From Natrinema sp. DC36 (lineage in GTDB: Archaea > Halobacteriota > Halobacteria > Halobacteriales > Natrialbaceae): a DNA stretch of 64,000 nucleotides. Numbering within the stretch: the stretch's first letter is position 1; each line of letters starts with the position of its first letter. The stretch is from contig NZ_CP084472.1 of NCBI RefSeq assembly GCF_020405225.1, positions 2,852,001 through 2,916,000 on the forward strand, written 5' to 3'. The notes below the pieces were generated by a model. The model saw nothing but the letters and a program-made list of their open reading frames with translations, was not told the origin of the DNA and made no database searches. Position numbers and translations under genes: made by a program. Positions 18,794-42,116 of the stretch are shown in pieces.

Positions 18794-18877
18794 ATACGGT
18801 CTGCTGTAAGTCATTTCCGGCGCGACCGCAGGCCGGATCGCGGTCGCGCCAGTAAATCGTTACAGCAAACCGTATCA
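18794..18877. repeat. Palindromic repeat element A, copy 1, overlapping the pirin stop codon
   Basis: An ~82-bp element with terminal inverted repeats ATACGGTCTGCTGTAA (18794-18809) and TTACAGCAAACCGTAT (18860-18875). An inner perfect 11-bp palindrome is GGCGCGACCGC with GCGGTCGCGCC around a 10-base loop. On the minus strand the last element base is part of the TGA stop of the pirin gene (TGATACGG). Two more copies are at 34919-35002 and 39627-39707. No coding capacity; MITE-like or a mobile terminator. Confidence 0.85.
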
Positions 18878-19600
18878 GGCCACGATCGGCCCGCGCTGGT
18901 GGATCTGCTCGTCGTGCGGTCGGCCGGCGACGGCGACGACGCGACAGCCGTCGTCCGACGATAGCGTCACGGCATCGTCGCCCGCGGCGACGGTGCAGAC
19001 GCGCCCAGTCTCGAGTGATGCGTTGTCGACCGCACCCGACCCCGAGAGGACGAAACAGAAGCCGACCCAGTCGCTGGGGCGGTCCCACGACCACGACGCG
19101 TTCTCCGCGAGCGTCACGTCTCGGTACGTCATCGGGGTCTCGAACTCGAGCGGCGAGCCCTCGCCGACGACGGTCGTGACGGTGGCACCGCCCGACTCCG
19201 CGGTCGGCAACTGTTCGGCCGTCGCGTCCGCGTACGACGGCTCGATCTCCTTGCGCTCTCGAGGAAGATTGAGCCACAGTTGAAGGCCGGTACAGGGGCC
19301 GTCCGCCGGGAACTCCGAGTGTTCGATGCCCCGCCCCGCGGAGATCCGCATGGCCTCGCCCGCTCGAGCCGTCCCCGCGTTACCGAGCGAGTCGTCGTGG
19401 GCCATCCCGCCCTCGAGCATGTAGGTGCAGATCTCGAACCCGGCGTGGCGGTGGCTGGGGAACCCCTGGTCGGCCCCGATGTGGAATCGCTCGAAGAGCA
19501 CGAACGGATCCAGATGCGAGTGCGTTCGCGTGGGAAACGCACGAGTCGCGCGCATCCCGCCGGCGTGGGTCACGTCCGCGGCGTCGTGGAGAGATACCAT
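18875..19600 (-). CDS. Pirin family protein
   Basis: A 241-residue bicupin of the pirin family. The four metal ligands are recognisable in the N-terminal cupin: His50 and His52 (PSHRHAGFE), His94 and Glu96 (GIEHSEF). The family hallmark GGMAHDDSLGNAG is present. Pirins bind Fe and some act as quercetin dioxygenases or redox-sensing cofactors; haloarchaeal roles are not established. The C-terminal cupin ends DEQIHQRGPIVA immediately before a stop codon that lies inside the end of palindromic element A. Confidence 0.9.
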   Translation of the reverse strand: MVSLHDAADVTHAGGMRATRAFPTRTHSHLDPFVLFERFHIGADQGFPSHRHAGFEICTYMLEGGMAHDDSLGNAGTARAGEAMRISAGRGIEHSEFPADGPCTGLQLWLNLPRERKEIEPSYADATAEQLPTAESGGATVTTVVGEGSPLEFETPMTYRDVTLAENASWSWDRPSDWVGFCFVLSGSGAVDNASLETGRVCTVAAGDDAVTLSSDDGCRVVAVAGRPHDEQIHQRGPIVA

Positions 19601-19675: not shown

Positions 19676-19960
19676 GTCTCACGCCACCCCTGTCAACCGG
19701 CGTGCGGTGGCGCACGCTGGACCGGGGTGAGACGTGCGAGGTCCGAACGGAGTGAGGACCTCGAGAAGCGAACGGGGAGCAAAGCGACCCGTGAGCCACT
19801 GGTGAACCGCGGGCCGAAATCGTGCGAGGTCTTCGCGAACGGAGCGAGCAAAGGCTCGGAAGACGTGTATGCGTCTTCCGTTGGATGAGTGAGTGACCGG
19901 CGGGAGCGAACGAATCGACTGGGGAGGGCGCGGCGATTCCCTGTTGCCACGATAGCAGGA
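19676..19960. repeat. Dispersed repeat family B, copy 1 (~285 bp)
   Basis: This copy starts GTCTCACGCCA, shares a CGGTGGCGC..CGCTGG block near its left end and a conserved right end (CGAATCGACTGGGGAGGGCG, then GCGATTCCCTGTTGCCAC). The same ends appear at 28481-28622 and 41887-42116 with different middles. The middle is rich in GAACGGAGTGAG-type words. The minus strand gives a spurious-looking frame (MATGN.RALPSRF...) in every copy. It fills most of the 437-base gap between pirin and FAU-1, and no gene is supported there. Confidence 0.75.
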
Positions 19961-28480: not shown

Positions 28481-28622
28481 ACCGACCGGACCACGTGCGG
28501 TGGCGCGCGCTGGGCCGCGGTGAATGCCAATGAACCGCGGCTCGAAGCTGCGCGAGGGATGAGTGAGGGAACGGAGTGACCGAGCGAATCGGCTGGGGAG
28601 GGCGTGGCTATTCCCTGCTGCC
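28481..28622. repeat. Dispersed repeat family B, copy 2 (shortened)
   Basis: The left block ACGTGCGGTGGCGCGCGCTG and the right block CGAATCGGCTGGGGAGGGCG plus TGGCTATTCCCTGCTGCCA match copies 1 and 3. The GTCTCAC start is missing and the middle is much shorter. The surrounding 28368-29037 holds no supported gene. Besides this copy it contains a relic of a coding fragment near 28711-28800 and a 10-bp hairpin (GTCGCGGGCT at 28884-28893 with AGCCCGCGAC at 28901-28910). Confidence 0.7.
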
Positions 28623-28710
28623 AGTGAATCAGGGTGCTCGTCGTTTGAAGTGATTCGCCCACGCACCCGTATATCGCCTCGAGTCGCGATATCAAAATCC
28701 CACAACGAGC

Positions 28711-33781: not shown

Positions 33782-34057
33782 AGGTGTGTGAATGCACACC
33801 ATGCTATTAAATCGTTGGGTCGGTGAAGATCCTGCCACCTCCGCGAGACCACGCGTCGTCGCTGCGACGACGGAAGTAGCAGCCTCCCAGACGACGGAAT
33901 CAGCCGCCCGCCAGCGCCGACGGATGAGACGGTCTAGCGTACCGATGTCCCGGCAGAATCGTCGGGCGGTCGCGATTGCTCCGGAACTGACTAACAACAG
34001 TCCGTCCGAGAGCATTCGACCCGCGCCCTTTTCTCGCTCTCGGCCGAACGGTATCGT

Positions 34058-34921
34058 ATGAGCGACCTGCGCCTCGACGCGACCCAGCTCGATCGCTACT
34101 CGAGACACGTCATCATGGACGAGATCGGTCCCGAGGGCCAACAGCGGCTGCTCGAGGGGAGCGTCCTGATCGTCGGCGCCGGCGGACTCGGCTCGCCGGC
34201 AATTCAGTATCTCGCCGCGGCCGGCGTCGGTCGGCTGGGAATCGTCGACGACGACGTCGTCGAGCGCTCGAACCTGCAACGACAGATCGTCCACGGCGAC
34301 GCCGACGTCGGTCGGCCGAAGGTCGAGAGCGCCGCCGACTACGTCGACCAACTGAACCCCGATATCGACGTCGAGACCCACGAAACTCGCGTTACCGCGG
34401 CGACCGTCGAGTCCCTGGTCGCCGAGTACGACATCGTCCTCGACGCCAGCGACAATTTCGCGACCCGCTACCTGCTCAACGACCACTGCGTCCTCACCGA
34501 GACGCCGCTGTTTCACGGCGCGATCTACCGGTTCGAGGGGCAGATCACGTCCTTCACCAACGACCGCAGCGGTGACGGCCGCGGCGATACGGACGGAGAC
34601 GAGACGTCGCCGCCGTGTTACCGCTGTGTCTTCCCCGAAGCGCCCGAACCCGGGACCGTTCCGGACTGCGCGACCACGGGCGTCCTCGGCGTCCTCCCCG
34701 GCACCGTCGGCTGTATCCAGGCCACCGAGGTCGTCAAATACCTGCTCGAGAAGGGCGACCTGCTCGAGGGGCGCCTCCTGCTGTACGACGCGATGGACAT
34801 GACCTTCGAGGAGGTCCCAGTTCAGCCGAACCCGGCGTGTCCGGTCTGCGGGGACGACCCCGAAATCGAATCGGTCTCGGACGTGGCCTACGAGGGCACC
34901 TGCGAGATTTCGGCCGACTGA
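34058..34921 (+). CDS. ubaA: UbaA, E1-like SAMP-activating enzyme (HesA/MoeB/ThiF family)
   Basis: A 287-residue E1-like adenylyltransferase that activates the ubiquitin-like SAMP proteins for sampylation and for sulfur transfer to molybdopterin and thiolated tRNA in haloarchaea. The ATP-binding motif is GAGGLGSP (residues 40-47), with DDDVVERSNLQRQIVH following. The zinc Cys pairs are CYRC (187-190) and CPVC (261-264). The catalytic Cys is expected at 204 in PDCATTGVLGVLPG. A short acidic insert (residues ~170-183) lies before the first Cys pair. Its stop codon abuts palindromic element A, copy 2. Confidence 0.92.
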   Translation: MSDLRLDATQLDRYSRHVIMDEIGPEGQQRLLEGSVLIVGAGGLGSPAIQYLAAAGVGRLGIVDDDVVERSNLQRQIVHGDADVGRPKVESAADYVDQLNPDIDVETHETRVTAATVESLVAEYDIVLDASDNFATRYLLNDHCVLTETPLFHGAIYRFEGQITSFTNDRSGDGRGDTDGDETSPPCYRCVFPEAPEPGTVPDCATTGVLGVLPGTVGCIQATEVVKYLLEKGDLLEGRLLLYDAMDMTFEEVPVQPNPACPVCGDDPEIESVSDVAYEGTCEISAD

Positions 34922-35002
34922 GACGGTCTGCTGTAACGATGTACCGGCGCGACCGCAGGCCGGATCGCAGTCGCGCCGGAAATGACTGACAGCAGTCCGT
35001 AT
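34919..35002. repeat. Palindromic repeat element A, copy 2, adjoining the ubaA stop codon
   Basis: The end GACGGTCTGCTGTAA (34922-34936) directly follows the ubaA TGA (34919-34921). The other end is TGACAGCAGTCCGTAT (34987-35002). The inner palindrome GGCGCGACCGC/GCAGTCGCGCC has one mismatch and is nearly identical to copy 1. Confidence 0.85.
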
Positions 35003-35058
35003 GAGCGTCTCGAGACCCGATCGGAGTGAGGGGCTCGGAAAGCGAGCGGTGACGACAG

Positions 35059-39595: not shown

Positions 39596-39626
39596 TCGCA
39601 CAGTTCGCAGCGACGAAAGACGGTTC

Positions 39627-39707
39627 ATACGGTCTGTTGTAAGATGTACCGGAGCAACCGTAGGACGGGTCGCGGTTTCCGGAACTGACTGACAGCAGTC
39701 CGTATCA
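39627..39707. repeat. Palindromic repeat element A, copy 3, overlapping the Tfx-family stop codon
   Basis: The ends are ATACGGTCTGTTGTAA (39627-39642) and TGACAGCAGTCCGTAT (39690-39705). On the minus strand the last base joins CA to make the TGA stop of the Tfx-type gene. The inner stem (GGAGCAACCG / CGCGGTTTCC) has decayed compared with copies 1 and 2. Confidence 0.85.
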
Positions 39708-40163
39708 CTCGTGGTGGCGAACGCGGACCATTCCCTCCGAGGTCACCCCGACGATCAGCGGCGTCGATATCTGCCGACCGGTGACGGCCGACCCCGCGGC
39801 ATCCCCGACGACTTTCATCAGATCCGGCGCGGTGTGATCGACCTTGACGCCGGCCTCGTCGCAGGCGTCGTACACCATCTGGGGCACGTCGTAGAGGTCG
39901 GTCCCGGCGGGGACGCGAACGCGGACCGGCGCGCGAAGCGCCTCCGCGAAGGCGACGGTCTCGCGGGCCTTCGACACGTTCTCCCGGGCGCTGGACTCGA
40001 TCGAGGAGACGTTCGCCCGCGAGGTCCCCAGCGACTCGGCGATATCGGCCTGCGAGACGCCGCGTTCGCGCAACGCGAGCACCTGTGCCTGCCGGTAGGT
40101 CAGGACGCTGGTCTCCGGATCGAACCCGATCTCCTCGAGGAGTTCCTCGACGTCGTCGATCAC
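39705..40163 (-). CDS. Tfx family DNA-binding protein
   Basis: A 152-residue protein of the archaeal Tfx family. The N-terminal helix-turn-helix is at residues ~20-65 (LTYRQAQVLALRERGVSQADIAESLGTSRANVSSIE). The C-terminal domain (VRVRVPAGTDLYDVPQMVYDACDEAGVKV ... TPLIVGVTSEGMVRVRHHE) is the family's effector region. The founding member binds the promoter of a molybdenum-formylmethanofuran dehydrogenase operon in Methanothermobacter; the haloarchaeal targets are unknown. The stop codon lies inside repeat element A. Confidence 0.88.
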   Translation of the reverse strand: MIDDVEELLEEIGFDPETSVLTYRQAQVLALRERGVSQADIAESLGTSRANVSSIESSARENVSKARETVAFAEALRAPVRVRVPAGTDLYDVPQMVYDACDEAGVKVDHTAPDLMKVVGDAAGSAVTGRQISTPLIVGVTSEGMVRVRHHE

Positions 40164-41886: not shown

Positions 41887-42116
41887 GTCTCACACCAGAC
41901 CAGTCAGCCGGCATGTGGTGGCGCGCGCTGGGCCGCGGCGAATTGCGAGGCCTGAACGGAGTGAAGGCCTCGATACTGTGAGCGGTGACCGGAGGGAACC
42001 GCGAACGGATTGAGAGCCGCGGCCTGAAGCCGTGCGAGGGATGAGCGAACGAACGGAGTGAGTGAGCGAATCGGCTGGGGAGGGCGTGGCTATTCCCTGT
42101 TGCCACGGTAGCAGGA
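41887..42116. repeat. Dispersed repeat family B, copy 3 (~230 bp)
   Basis: This copy has both full ends: GTCTCACACCAGACCAGTCA with the GGTGGCGCGCGCTGGGCCGC block on the left, and CGAATCGGCTGGGGAGGGCG with TATTCCCTGTTGCCAC and GTAGCAGGA on the right. Words such as GAACGGAGTGA recur in the middle. No coding region is supported in 41810-42211. Confidence 0.8.

Follow-up and report, generated by a model that had tools for sequence, protein, structure and literature searches.

Insertion sequences of the IS1031 subgroup of the IS5 family generate TNA target duplications (ISfinder). The same 3-bp TNA duplication flanks the palindromic element described here, which occurs at stop codons in the window, the whole 64-kb stretch of Natrinema sp. 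DC36 DNA that we analysed. Prokaryotic MITEs have been reviewed (PMC10969869), and those of Haloquadratum have been described (PMC3119063). Like the element, they are short and gene-free, carry terminal inverted repeats, duplicate their target, are present in many mostly intergenic copies and are moved in trans. The element is also multicopy, dispersed and recently mobile, as seen from the 67 copies in its own genome and from identical copies in two other genomes (G023 and G075). Unlike MITEs, it has yielded no partner insertion sequence in our searches, consists almost wholly of one palindrome, and lies exactly at a stop codon in more than half of its copies.

The SMRs of Haloquadratum walsbyi are 80-110 bp long, have inverted terminal repeats unrelated to the known transposons there, and have no known mover; they show a strong target preference (reportedly for IS605-type elements), are reported to make no target duplication and are absent from one large plasmid (PMC3119063). 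The element resembles them in size, inverted ends, the lack of a known mover, strong target preference and absence from one large plasmid, but it duplicates 3 bp and prefers GACTSAGTC and gene ends, a distinction drawn from the published description of the SMRs (HqIRS40-43 and HqIRS55). REP elements are abundant extragenic palindromes, about 11% of the predicted E. coli REPs lying within 15 nt of a stop codon (PMC12306157, RepRanger). The element is likewise an abundant extragenic palindrome with some copies near stop codons, but it stands at distance zero, duplicates its target, lacks a GTAG/CGTC tag and is found in several copy-rich genomes without Y1. By two of these criteria, Y1 absence and target duplication, it is not a REP/RAYT element. 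A class of haloarchaeal 3'-end palindromes was not found described in the literature within our search, outside which most subscription journals lie.

Copies in the window and structure of the element

The sequence-only reading of this DNA reported three palindromes at stop codons, and our analysis confirms the observation: the three intact copies abut the stops of pirin, ubaA and tfx exactly, at distance zero (Table 1). Its count of three out of three needs correction to three of four, as there is also a decayed copy in the window, which lies 51 bp upstream of ubaA. The 15-base element end has 6 matches in the window with at most 3 mismatches, compared to 0.55 expected in shuffled sequences, and the window copies fold more stably than shuffled sequence, with z from -3.1 to -9.8.

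Table 1. Positions of element copies, duplicated targets, adjoining genes and related features (window positions unless a contig or locus is given; G000, Natrinema sp. DC36)
Feature	Position	Strand	Remark
Element copy 1, 80 nt	18795..18874	-	strand is the one with the A arm first
Distal copy of duplicated triplet TCA, element copy 1	18792..18794		
Gene-side copy of duplicated target, TGA stop of the pirin gene	18875..18877	-	TCA on + strand
Pirin-like gene adjoining element copy 1	18875..19600	-	Pfam Pirin and Pirin_C
Decayed fourth element copy	33928..34006	+	47.6 bits; flanks TGA/CGA; not at a called stop
ubaA-like E1/ThiF-family gene adjoining element copy 2	34058..34921	+	Pfam ThiF
Gene-side copy of duplicated target, TGA stop of ubaA	34919..34921	+	
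Element copy 2, 80 nt	34922..35001	+	empty site in G028
Distal copy of duplicated triplet TGA, element copy 2	35002..35004		
Distal copy of duplicated triplet TCA, element copy 3	39625..39627		
Element copy 3, 77 nt	39628..39704	+	empty sites in G021 and G028
Gene-side copy of duplicated target, TGA stop of tfx	39705..39707	-	TCA on + strand
Tfx-family DNA-binding protein gene adjoining element copy 3	39705..40163	-	Pfam TFX_C
Sister palindromes	G000:C1:814874-814947 (L122); L130 12827-12992; L150 3729-3808; L127 14314-14393		
Stacked insertions	G000:C1:2350577-2350739; G075 loci L360, L370, L380, L391		

The element runs from TACGG to CCGTA and is built of two arms of about 26 nt, with TACGG... 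terminal inverted repeats and a GC-rich inner stem. It contains no gene and hence no transposase gene, and nearly all good copies are 77-81 nt long, well within the size limit of 500 bp used for MITEs. The outer arms, 13-15 nt, are paired in 92% of cells, the inner stem shows compensatory changes, and a conserved T:T mismatch lies near the tip of the palindrome. Two orthologous copies, L035 in DC36 (G000:C1:2478950-2479029) and L206 in G021, differ in that the loop is inverted and one arm is replaced, so that one of the two is a perfect palindrome; the difference looks like hairpin-templated correction. Because palindrome-templated correction can yield paired changes, the compensatory changes do not prove that the element acts as RNA. 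Rfam gave no match above threshold, the best one over copy 1 scoring 26.5 bits against a gathering score of 97, and the only phage matches are chance-like ones of 34 bases to one Caulobacter phage.

Two other repeats are present in the window. The sequence directly after copy 2 (35005-35053, beginning GCGTCTCGAGACCCGATCGGAGTGAGGGG) is a separate repeat with matches of 75-81% identity elsewhere in the genome and in relatives, and a 102-nt direct repeat unrelated to the element has three copies, 69-85% identical, at 19858-19959, 28532-28633 and 42014-42115.

The stop triplet is a duplicated target

Copies were detected with a covariance model, and a set of 263 drawn from the own genome, the genus, the family and the class was used for the analysis of flanks and stop codons. 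The triplets on the left and right are identical and in direct orientation in 203 of the 263 copies, and all of these are TNA (113 TGA, 87 TCA and 3 TTA); a fourth TTA/TTA site was found in G023. Copies of the same internal orientation are flanked by either TCA/TCA or TGA/TGA, so the triplet is not part of the element, and the repeats are direct, not inverted as they would be between two convergent stop codons. The earlier reading had placed the terminal TGA inside the element and had suggested that the element might carry its own stop; instead, the stop triplet lies outside as one of the two flanking direct repeats, and it belongs to the target, which is duplicated on insertion. In the commonest departures from identical flanks, T(G/C)A is kept on one side and the other side is altered (e.g. 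TGA...CGA or TCG...TCA), a one-sided decay that is as expected if constraint acts on the gene-side triplet alone.

Empty sites in relatives, a comparison the same reading had proposed, contain the triplet once. When the flanks of copy 3 are joined, they align with G021 (438 bases, 93% identity) and with G028 (87%), both without the element, and the single triplet is TTA in G021, where it is itself a TAA stop, and TCA in G028. The site of copy 2 is occupied in G021 and empty in G028, again with one triplet. At ubaA, most of 80 haloarchaeal loci lack the element, but the same stop is independently occupied in Natribaculum breve (L171) and in a Halococcaceae MAG (L198). Unrelated sites carry identical copies, three of them in G023 and seven in G075. 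Taken together, direct duplication of 3 bp, empty sites and identical copies at unrelated loci show transposition and support the earlier suggestion that the element inserts at TGA-containing targets. We also observed stacked insertions (Table 1), in which a newer copy stands at the same stop ahead of an older one, giving two elements in a row at a gene end.

The strong folding and the location at stops would also fit an ancestral terminator or 3'-UTR RNA that is immobile and inherited vertically with its genes. The empty sites and the identical copies at unrelated genes refute this explanation, and the direct target duplications and the range of 0 to at least 149 copies among relatives within one family of archaea speak against it too, as does the choice of stops: the element uses TGA 151 times, TAA only twice and TAG never, compared to 815, 270 and 355 in the background. 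We regard it as almost certainly wrong.

Copy number and replicons

The 67 copies of the DC36 genome all lie on the 4.1 Mb contig C1. No full copy is found on contigs C2-C7 of this genome (0.99 Mb; p = 5e-7 under uniform placement), and a lone half-arm is present on C2. Plasmids of other species do carry copies, at 49 places in 20 records. In congeners the number varies from none to about 75 or more, in a count that takes both strands of one copy, the relative G075 has at least 149, and matches occur in 89 of 242 genomes across the class. There are also sister palindromes with a similar inner layout (Table 1), whose ends are TACTGT... or TAGTAG... and whose flanks fit a 2-bp TA duplication and not TNA.

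Target preference and position at stop codons

A coding stop is abutted by 153 of the 263 copies (58%), and the remaining 42% lie elsewhere; as genes were called by a codon-usage script that misses some short ones, this share is a lower estimate. It is 49/67 in the own genome, 55/93 in the genus, 17/33 among distant loci and 9/30 in G075, while in the background stops make up 12.7% of non-coding TGAs and TGA stops taken together. The test of stop distances across genomes proposed by the sequence-only reading therefore gives an intermediate result: 58% at stops is far above chance, and 42% of the copies do not follow the rule.

Intact sites away from called stops have a common dyad-symmetric consensus, GACTSAGTC. 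Weight matrices trained on these non-stop sites only, a set that may include missed short genes and so make its motif look more stop-like, predict 42% of sites at stops with six positions (bootstrap 35-46%) and 55% with thirteen (41-60%); the share seen for intact sites is 60%, slightly above the motif-based 42-55%. No TGA gene end is more common in the background than the left half-site, GAC|TGA (Asp-stop; 150/815), and GAC before the stop is enriched at element sites (62/153 vs 150/815, p = 1.5e-8). Copies also occur upstream of genes and inside them: insertion L223 splits a metallo-hydrolase-like frame into two halves, and L395 has a strong coding signal on both sides. Since insertions inside genes occur, a stop codon is no requirement for the mover; gene ends are good targets, and harmless ones, as the duplication keeps a stop next to the gene. 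Most of the stop bias thus probably comes from target preference and survival, the latter a step that we infer, and not from stop recognition.

Age was considered as another cause. Recent copies are at stops in 9 of 30 cases in G075, compared to 49 of 67 for all copies of the own genome (p = 1e-4), and in 8 of 12 cases in G244. Age by itself therefore does not account for the stop bias, as the recent copies of G244 are mostly at stops.

Of the copies at stops, 98 have the A arm gene-proximal and 53 the B arm, while the split at non-stop TGA sites is 31:46. With orthologues removed, the ratios are 90:50 at stops and 27:37 elsewhere (Fisher p = 0.004), a post hoc observation. From a symmetric target no orientation bias at stops would be predicted; the bias could come from 3'-end selection or transcription-linked insertion. 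Insertion might be coupled to gene ends, through transcription termination or the translation stop, or the hairpin might be retained for a 3'-UTR role in mRNA stability, termination or slowing of the last codons. This orientation bias, confined to stops, argues for such a coupling or role, as do the small excess of intact sites at stops over the motif prediction and the strong folding with its compensatory changes. However, 42% of the copies lie away from called stops, some of them within genes, the motif accounts for most of the enrichment, palindrome correction of the kind seen between L035 and L206 can also produce paired changes, in a small sample the orthologous copies do not clearly exceed their flanks in conservation, and an Rfam family is absent. 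On balance, we consider gene-end coupling or a 3'-UTR role improbable as the main explanation, and target choice with survival remains our preferred account. The data can be explained without the terminator or conserved RNA structure that the sequence-only reading suggested.

Candidates for the mover

Within the limits of our search, the own genome, G023 and G075 yielded no autonomous copy, that is, none whose arms enclose a gene. Isolated element ends in the own genome led to no transposase, every element end in G023 is paired, and the two unlisted ends in G075 are one truncated and one diverged copy. No transposase-bearing element sharing its ends was found in these three genomes; the mover may lie elsewhere, and hence we call the element MITE-like.

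PF13586 transposases, our proxy for the IS427-like group related to IS1031, are absent from all 29 genomes of the genus. Every copy-rich genome tested has DDE_Tnp_1 genes. The ones examined in G075 are parts of insertion sequences whose ends are unlike those of the element, and they were rejected as the mover. The 3-bp duplication and the symmetric target point to a trans-acting DDE transposase from another element as the likely mover.

A Y1 (HUH) transposase could instead move the element single-stranded, as a REP-like or IS200/IS605-derived palindrome in which the repeated TGA would be target and right cleavage site. The conserved T:T mismatch near the tip, the high copy number and the gene-end location are in keeping with such an origin, but the triplets co-vary, with TTA on both sides at the three copies and the further G023 site, Y1_Tnp has no match in the copy-rich genomes G000, G011, G012 and G244, which rejects Y1 as their mover, and the ends lack the GTAG/CGTC tags that define REP superfamilies (PMC3733652). 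We hold this origin to be very unlikely.

Discussion

The element is very probably a non-autonomous, MITE-like palindrome that duplicates TNA and abuts stop codons mainly as a by-product of its GACTSAGTC target choice and of survival. We propose that it is moved in trans by the transposase of another element, likely of the DDE type. It inserts into the dyad-symmetric GACTSAGTC with a 3-bp duplication of T(G/C)A. The left half of this target coincides with a common haloarchaeal gene end, the Asp codon GAC followed by a TGA stop, and the duplication preserves a complete stop beside the gene, which stays intact. Insertions at gene ends are thus both favoured and harmless, and most intragenic ones would be lost. 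Against this account stand the orientation bias at stops, the lack of an autonomous element or mover in our searches, and the differing stop shares of recent copies in G075 and G244.

A bolder proposal, which we offer as speculation and consider doubtful, is a stop-preserving mobile palindrome with a mover whose target fits the Asp-stop gene ends of an acidic proteome, with the 90:50 orientation arising from transcription-linked insertion or 3'-end selection. The element would then be a mini-transposon adapted to occupy gene termini safely, reshaping 3' UTRs by the hundred, and its mover might be a stand-alone transposase encoded by the host.

For annotation, such palindromes should not be called terminators or 3'-UTR RNAs without a test. 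With copy numbers that range from 0 to at least 149 among genomes, this orphan element allows its mover to be sought by genome comparison. It illustrates that target choice alone can put a transposon at stop codons harmlessly, and it explains a widespread class of 3'-end palindromes across the haloarchaea.
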